From an uncultured Nitrospiraceae bacterium (lineage in GTDB: Bacteria > Nitrospirota > Thermodesulfovibrionia > Thermodesulfovibrionales > Thermodesulfovibrionaceae), in NCBI GenBank assembly GCA_937139565.1, contig CAKZQH010000089.1, positions 1 to 61,203 of the forward strand: a DNA stretch of 61,203 nucleotides, read 5' to 3'. Under the pieces are notes generated by a model. It saw only the letters and a program-made list of their open reading frames with translations. It was not told the DNA's origin and searched no databases. Both the position numbers and the translations under genes were made by a program. The stretch's first letter is position 1; the number at the start of each line of letters is the position of its first letter. Below are positions 15,006 through 15,832 of this stretch, one piece after another.

Positions 15006-15698
15006 CTAACCCTTTTTCCTCCAGTAGGCTATGCTTACATTAGCATAGTCTTTTATCCATATATGTCCAAATTCATAAGAAAGATTTTTAAATATTTTAT
15101 CTTTCTCGAAGGGATACAATTCTCTTTTGAATTTAAACTCCCAATGTTCAAGTAGTTCGTCAATGCTATGATAGGCGAAGGAATTTTCCCACACATAGGA
15201 ATTATAAAAGAGCATTTTATAGGAAGGATAATAGGAAGTTAACTTATTAATTGGAAAGGGTTTTTCTGAGACGAGGAAAAAGTTTTTGACTCCTGAGTTA
15301 AAAATTTTAAAGAGAGAACCTTCGAGTCCATCCTCAGTTAAATGAAGACTATTGCAGGCCAATACAAGATCATATTCATTAAGTTCATGGATTGCTAAAT
15401 CTTCAAATCTCCTGCTATCAATGTCTACTTTATTGAGGTTATCTCTATTTTTTTCTATGAGAAATTCTCTAATCTTTGTGGAAGGTTCAAGAGCTGTTAC
15501 GGAACATTTTTTTTCTAAAAGAGGGAAACTTAGCACTCCATCTCCAGCCCCTATGTCTAAAATTCTACATTTTTCCGAGATAAGATGGAGTAATAGCTTC
15601 TTTATCGGTTCATGATAAGTAGTATGAGTTCTCCAAAGCCTGTACCATTTGGCATAATCATTCCAATAGTTGATTTTTTTTATTTCAGTTTCTATCAT
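15006..15698 (-). CDS. Class I SAM-dependent methyltransferase
   Basis: A 230-residue Rossmann-fold methyltransferase. Motif I is RILDIGAGDGVLSF, followed by the acidic strand TALEPS and the motif IV region DLVLACNSLHL. No specific substrate is evident. I chose the ATG at 15698 because the upstream in-frame ATG (15731) lies inside the loop of a terminator hairpin. No Shine-Dalgarno precedes 15698; the U-run of the hairpin ends three bases before it. The gene lies downstream of a perfect consensus promoter on the same strand, so attenuation is likely. Confidence 0.7.
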   Translation of the reverse strand: MIETEIKKINYWNDYAKWYRLWRTHTTYHEPIKKLLLHLISEKCRILDIGAGDGVLSFPLLEKKCSVTALEPSTKIREFLIEKNRDNLNKVDIDSRRFEDLAIHELNEYDLVLACNSLHLTEDGLEGSLFKIFNSGVKNFFLVSEKPFPINKLTSYYPSYKMLFYNSYVWENSFAYHSIDELLEHWEFKFKRELYPFEKDKIFKNLSYEFGHIWIKDYANVSIAYWRKKG

Positions 15699-15700
15699 AC

Positions 15701-15750
15701 AAAAATAAAGAAGCCACAGCTCGGGATTCATCCCAAACTGTGGCCTTCAT
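15701..15750 (-). terminator. Intrinsic terminator / attenuator hairpin
   Basis: On the minus strand GAAGGCCACAG pairs with CTGTGGCTTC (ten pairs, one bulged G), capped by GGGA-TGAA-TCCC and followed by TTTATTTTTG. It sits about 50-95 bases from the transcription start predicted from the upstream promoter and ends three bases before the methyltransferase ATG. An alternative stem GTGGTC-ATGAA-GGCCAC (15756-15740) would capture the left arm and prevent terminator formation. Confidence 0.75.
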
Positions 15751-15803
15751 GACCACTATAATTTCAAATAGACTAAAAACTTTTGTCTTTAAGTTTTTAA
15801 AAA

Positions 15804-15832
15804 ATTATAGCTAAAAAGGTACATTTTGTCAA
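15804..15832 (-). promoter_or_regulatory. Perfect consensus sigma70 promoter
   Basis: Reading the minus strand, TTGACA (15832-15827) and TATAAT (15809-15804) are separated by exactly 17 bases. Both hexamers match the consensus fully, the only such promoter noticed in the window. Predicted start is near 15797. The following 97 bases contain an 8-bp AT hairpin (AAAAACTT / AAGTTTTT), an antiterminator-like stem and an intrinsic terminator. Confidence 0.85.

Follow-up and report, generated by a model that had tools for sequence, protein, structure and literature searches.

In the window (the whole 61,203-nt stretch of DNA analysed here), a promoter on the minus strand is separated from a methyltransferase gene by a short structured leader. 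The locus raises the question of whether this region makes a small RNA in its own right or controls the gene that follows it, and, if the latter, in response to which signal. Judging from sequence comparison, we consider it likely that the leader and the family to which it belongs are transcription attenuators of a nickel/cobalt uptake regulon in those Nitrospirota that lack NikR. The elements of the locus are, in order:

15827..15832, minus strand: -35 box TTGACA, matching the consensus exactly, with a 17-nt spacer to the -10 box
15804..15809, minus strand: -10 box TATAAT, read from the sequence
15774..15791, minus strand: hairpin 1, UAAAGAC-AAAA-GUUUUUA, 7 bp, from folding
15740..15756, minus strand: hairpin 2, the putative antiterminator, GUGGUC-AUGAA-GGCCAC, which shares its 3' strand with the terminator as the 5' arm of the latter
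15713..15744, minus strand: intrinsic terminator, GCCACAGUUUGGGA-UGAA-UCCCGAGCUGUGGC, conserved with compensatory changes in relatives
15701..15712, minus strand: U tract, UUCUUUAUUUUU, T-rich in the sequence
15006..15698, minus strand: class I SAM-dependent methyltransferase of 230 aa (Pfam Methyltransf_12/25), the putative regulated gene

The initial annotation had described a perfect TTGACA-17-TATAAT promoter on the minus strand. This proved correct, and neither strand of the 61-kb window has another exact TTGACA-N16..18-TATAAT; alignment places a -35 TTGACA at the equivalent position in 10 of 11 related leaders. Transcription would start near 15797. Hairpin 1, previously given as 8 bp, has 7 bp, and its sequence is not conserved: in 8 of the 11 aligned relatives a hairpin with an NGAA loop, for example GUC-UGAA-GAC, is found instead. 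Hairpin 2 consists of GUGGUC (15756-15751), the loop AUGAA (15750-15746) and GGCCAC (15745-15740). The terminator core pairs 15744-15731 with 15726-15713 over 14 bp, and its tip, GGG-AUGAAU-CCC, forms a third hairpin that is present in both states. The U tract, in which TTTATTT is invariant across 11 leaders, ends at 15701 and the methyltransferase ATG lies at 15698, just past the terminator, as the annotation had stated. This ATG, directly 3' of the U tract (window 15712-15698), lacks a Shine-Dalgarno sequence in 11/11 Thermodesulfovibrio leaders, unlike most methyltransferase orthologues of other families, which have GGAGG-like sites before the ATG. Convergent with the methyltransferase lies a gene for SfsA fused to a C-terminal DUF123 (PF01986; 13869-15005, plus strand).

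The predicted folding energy of the leader is -33.5 kcal/mol, compared with a mean of -17.5 for its shuffles (z = -5.9), and none of 200 shuffles folded as well. When the 5' part was folded alone it formed two small hairpins, whereas the full sequence formed the terminator; the two arrangements are thus mutually exclusive, which upholds the earlier proposal that GTGGTC-ATGAA-GGCCAC is an alternative stem built on the left arm of the terminator. Because the terminator is much more stable than the small hairpins, it is probably the default state. The window contains two features expected of an attenuator: a dedicated promoter followed by a terminator ahead of the gene, and a conserved alternative structure that excludes the terminator.

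We surveyed 16 Thermodesulfovibrio genomes by DNA and pattern searches. Leader and methyltransferase were both found in 11 and neither in the other 5, two of which are 99% complete. The leader always lies directly 5' of a methyltransferase orthologue (50-58% identity). The pairs occur in differing genomic settings, and the distance from the hairpin-2 loop to the ATG is fixed at 52-55 nt in all leader-bearing genomes. GUGGUC and GGCCAC are invariant in 11/11 and the loop is 98% conserved, whereas the preceding 40 alignment columns average 30% identity. Since GUGGUC falls outside the terminator core, its invariance speaks for the alternative hairpin. Conserved pairing of the alternative stems in homologous loci, which the initial annotation had put forward as its own test, is present. 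A terminator of the ordinary kind, unregulated and lying between two neighbouring genes, would account for the strength of the intrinsic terminator, and yet this one is placed between a promoter and its gene rather than 3' of a gene, GUGGUC is invariant outside the core, and both the loop sequence and the function of the downstream gene are conserved across families. We regard this as the least credible of the explanations considered.

The same comparisons bear on the choice left by the initial annotation between a 97-nt small RNA and a regulated leader. A small RNA of some 97 nt that stands alone, ending at the terminator and followed by the methyltransferase by chance, would fit the strong promoter and terminator, and in the same genus a conserved stand-alone RNA clearly begins with a related element (see below). 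However, leader and gene are jointly present or absent in 16/16 genomes at that fixed spacing, and the arrangement is repeated at orthologues in other families. Because the leader and the gene are co-inherited with the same distance in every genome, we take the leader to be a regulated methyltransferase leader, and the chance arrangement to be very improbable. A short terminated RNA must still be made from it. The 21-codon frame noted from the ATG at 15750 exists in the window only; in relatives the upstream frame has 5, 16 or 22 codons or is open into the gene, and the frames vary. A conserved translated leader ORF, as peptide-leader attenuators of the trp/his type need, was not found in the relatives, and attenuation by a leader peptide was rejected on this ground.

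Methyltransferase orthologues from other families (35-46% identity), which were collected by a protein search independent of the motif, bear an equivalent leader composed, in this order, of AGCCAYGAAGGCU, a small NGAA-loop hairpin, AGNCUUCRUGGCU and a U tract. A TTGACA promoter precedes most of these leaders, and often an upstream hairpin does too. The core motif, GCCAYGAAGGC ... NGAA hairpin ... CUUCRUGGC followed by a U-run, was sought across Nitrospirota; a scan for the methyltransferase in all GTDB genomes returned one Thermodesulfovibrio contig only. The pattern matched 58 of 176 genomes of the order and 63 of 396 of the phylum, whereas the reversed pattern matched none, and a looser pattern without the T requirement gave additional members. 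A T-rich tract, which the pattern does not demand, lies 3' of the right arm in all 112 sense copies with real flanks; the eight exceptions are these palindromes read from the antisense strand. The pair just outside the search pattern is A-T in 74 of these copies, G-C in 26, G-U in 9 and mismatched in 3, and the internal Y-R pair is T-A in 58, C-G in 49, T-G in 3 and C-A in 2. The NGAA mini-hairpin is short in most members (3-4 bp), and its outer pair is kept in 111/112. A second NGAA-loop hairpin is found in 81/112 members compared with 5.9 in shuffles, and is absent by the criterion used from 31/112; its position varies (the terminator tip in most, upstream in tonB leaders), and its stems vary in sequence yet keep pairing. 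The loop that recurs, (A)NGAA with a closing C-G pair, is found two or three times per leader, and the order varies.

These figures also bear on whether the element acts as DNA. Its arms form a strongly conserved inverted repeat, and regulation of the NikR type works by DNA binding, so that one could read it as the operator of some metal repressor with inverted-repeat half-sites and an incidental terminator. However, the spacer ranges from 8 to 36 nt, out of helical register; the T tract follows the right arm in every copy and G-U is accepted (the 9 cases at the outer pair); the stems of the second hairpin change while their pairing is kept; and the delta-proteobacterial NikR site, GTGTTAC-N13/14-GTAACAC, is different (PMC545781). 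An operator is therefore a highly doubtful explanation, and we continue with an RNA attenuator.

Several members depart from the common form. An extended outer stem (AAGGGAAGCC...GGCTTCCCTTT) occurs at L204, L206, L207 and L208 (genomes G024, G134, G135 and G036), and some of these copies lie 450-600 nt from the next gene. Tandem pairs of attenuators precede a single methyltransferase gene at L070/L190 (G024), L094 (G036) and L090 (G056). In addition, a stand-alone noncoding transcript is conserved in 11/16 Thermodesulfovibrio genomes (L225:884-1035, on contig C60 of the window's own genome; homologues L221-L231). It has a TTGACA promoter, an AUCCAAC-AGAA-GUUGGAU hairpin and the same attenuator, CCAUGAAGG...CUUCAUGG, followed in its 3' part by a conserved tail rich in C (CCCUCACCCCUUAG..CCCCCUAAGGGGUG..CCCUCCC), for which Shine-Dalgarno sequences are potential pairing partners; several of the loci have an apparent second terminator. 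Since the downstream genes differ, it looks like a trans-acting sRNA, the active half of which appears to be made only on read-through. In this subfamily the outer pair of the mini-hairpin is lost and 2 bp remain, while the terminator pair is kept via a compensatory change. With the mini-hairpin down to two pairs here, the antiterminator model is unequally supported among members.

The genes that follow the family point to its signal. The downstream gene could be read in 84 instances. In 75 of them a nickel/cobalt, TonB or associated gene lies within the first three, counting CbiM/NikM, NikK/NikL, NicO, TonB/ExbB/TonB-dependent receptor, the porin of nik operons, the small His-rich protein and the methyltransferase. 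The arrangements comprise CbiM/NikM with NikN; an LbtU-like porin followed by NikK (DUF4198), NikM and NikL; NicO; TonB, ExbB and ExbD; and TonB-dependent receptors. Among the remaining instances are genes for His-rich proteins and for a substrate-binding protein resembling, by eye, metal-chelate uptake proteins. The genome to which the window belongs has three further copies of the element, including one before tonB-exbB-exbD-receptor (C93:1216) and one before porin-nikK-nikM (C11:20969). The window methyltransferase itself stands alone, outside any nickel operon; in some Thermodesulfovibrio a TonB-dependent receptor lies 3' of it (L085), and elsewhere it is found within TonB, NikA-like or NikKM operons. 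SAM and SAH, which the initial annotation had listed among the ligands to assay, are not supported as the signal: the family precedes nickel/cobalt transport and TonB genes rather than genes of methylation or methionine.

Nickel operons also encode a small helical protein of 65-75 aa with an invariant HW..H...H..Y..W (L089:6051-6275, L138, L139, L143, L178-L180 and many genomes of the order). It belongs to no Pfam or NCBIfam family, matches part of larger proteins of about 320-400 aa that are apparently ECF-transporter ATPases, and is likely a metal-binding domain.

NikR and the leader exclude each other in their distribution. NikR (PF08753) is encoded in 36 of the 176 genomes of the order and the motif is present in 58, with no genome holding both (Fisher p = 1.3e-7, relatedness ignored); put the other way, 0/58 motif genomes encode NikR. 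Neither NikR nor the motif, as searched, is present in 82/176. Three families (f2, f3 and f13) hold both types of genome, and never both regulators in one genome. The NikR regulon resembles that of the leader in governing nickel uptake genes (nikMNQO/nikKMLQO), and has the same role in other families of the order; NikR, however, is a DNA-binding protein, and the leader element is unlike the delta-proteobacterial NikR site. A 2009 survey found NikR in fewer than half of the organisms bearing NikABCDE (PMC2667541), from which NikR-independent regulation has been suspected. The leader offers a specific candidate for a regulator of this kind: it is associated with nickel/cobalt uptake genes, is confined to genomes that lack NikR and, judged by its anatomy, acts at the RNA level. 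As the same leader stands before nickel/cobalt and TonB genes only in genomes without NikR, it probably represents an undescribed RNA-based control of nickel uptake; a search of the open-access literature found neither a published nickel-uptake riboswitch or attenuator nor a description of this leader.

We propose the following course of events. A transcript started near 15797 would by default end in the terminator (15744-15701), as a short RNA of some 97 nt. Were a factor to hold GUGGUC-AUGAA-GGCCAC and the neighbouring hairpins of NGAA type, the 5' arm of the terminator would be occupied, transcription would read through and the methyltransferase would be made. Because the leader belongs to the family of a nickel/cobalt uptake regulon, the expected signal is nickel (or cobalt) status; for the uptake genes, read-through would be expected at metal shortage, the direction being our inference. 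Several observations tell against this scheme: the shortness of the NGAA mini-hairpin in most members and its reduction in the stand-alone RNA subfamily, the members in which no second NGAA hairpin was found, the isolated position of the methyltransferase gene in the window, and the genomes of the order that have neither NikR nor the motif.

The sensor is probably an RNA-binding protein, the metal itself being the less likely choice. Direct binding of Ni2+/Co2+ or a small metal complex, which would stabilise the terminator with no protein involved, would suit a compact conserved RNA with conserved loops, a terminator as expression platform, a metal-uptake regulon and the lack of an Rfam match, and RNA can sense Ni/Co, as in the czcD NiCo riboswitch, which has been used as a sensor (PMC7917058). 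However, what is conserved amounts to two or three small hairpins whose spacing and order vary and whose NGAA loops recur, and this resembles a site for protein binding more than it does a compact metal aptamer. Moreover, the conserved loops sit in the antiterminator, so that ligand binding there would turn uptake on. We consider such a riboswitch unlikely and favour a protein. The small His-rich protein (HW..HN.EH) was rejected as the regulator: it is absent from 16/16 Thermodesulfovibrio, and NikR genomes commonly encode it, there also as a fusion with larger proteins. As the genus lacks it, it is not the sensor.

A wider and more tentative reading, to which we give slightly less than even weight, is that a new RNA-based nickel sensor replaces NikR across much of Nitrospirota, in which tandem NGAA-loop attenuators would be read by a dedicated nickel-sensing antiterminator protein or by the metal directly, together with a nickel-controlled trans-acting sRNA that possibly spares nickel as RyhB does iron. 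In practical terms, nickel genes, among them a methyltransferase of otherwise unassigned role, can be annotated by searching with the leader as a model; the leader also points to an RNA-binding sensor, and the question of regulation is open to metal-shift transcriptomics.

Among known systems, the initial annotation had recognised no riboswitch class in the leader, and Rfam 15 at gathering score, including the NiCo, cobalamin and SAM/SAH riboswitches, likewise gave no match in the window; at a permissive E-value the sub-threshold matches were eukaryotic or spurious, and in 15 related loci the only matches were tRNAs and, at genes other than those of the leaders, cobalamin riboswitches. SAM/SAH riboswitches have a likeness in that the downstream gene here is a SAM-dependent methyltransferase. 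They were rejected for want of a match in sequence or structure, and the family would regulate metal uptake, not methionine/SAM metabolism. The cobalamin riboswitch occurs in the same neighbourhoods (L086, L087), before TonB-dependent receptors other than the leader-bearing ones, and is a large aptamer with no match to the leaders studied. The NiCo (czcD) riboswitch is, like the leader, an RNA linked to nickel/cobalt homeostasis. It controls efflux genes, is on with metal and has a four-way junction, whereas the leader precedes uptake genes and has no Rfam match.

The target RNAs of ANTAR proteins (EutV/eutP, NasR/nasF, AmiR/amiE) resemble the leader in that small hairpins with a conserved loop stand in tandem and one of them overlaps the 5' arm of an intrinsic terminator; holding of that hairpin results in antitermination of the regulon (PMC3369931). 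Their loops are hexaloops with A1 and G4 (PMC3369931), in contrast to the loops seen here, (A)NGAA of 4-5 nt with a closing C-G pair, and the ANTAR domain (PF03861) was found in 0/16 Thermodesulfovibrio genomes. An ANTAR antiterminator was rejected on both counts. Since the genus has no ANTAR protein and the loops differ, a protein other than ANTAR is implied, and by analogy the loop repeats suggest one that would grip tandem hairpins as ANTAR proteins do.
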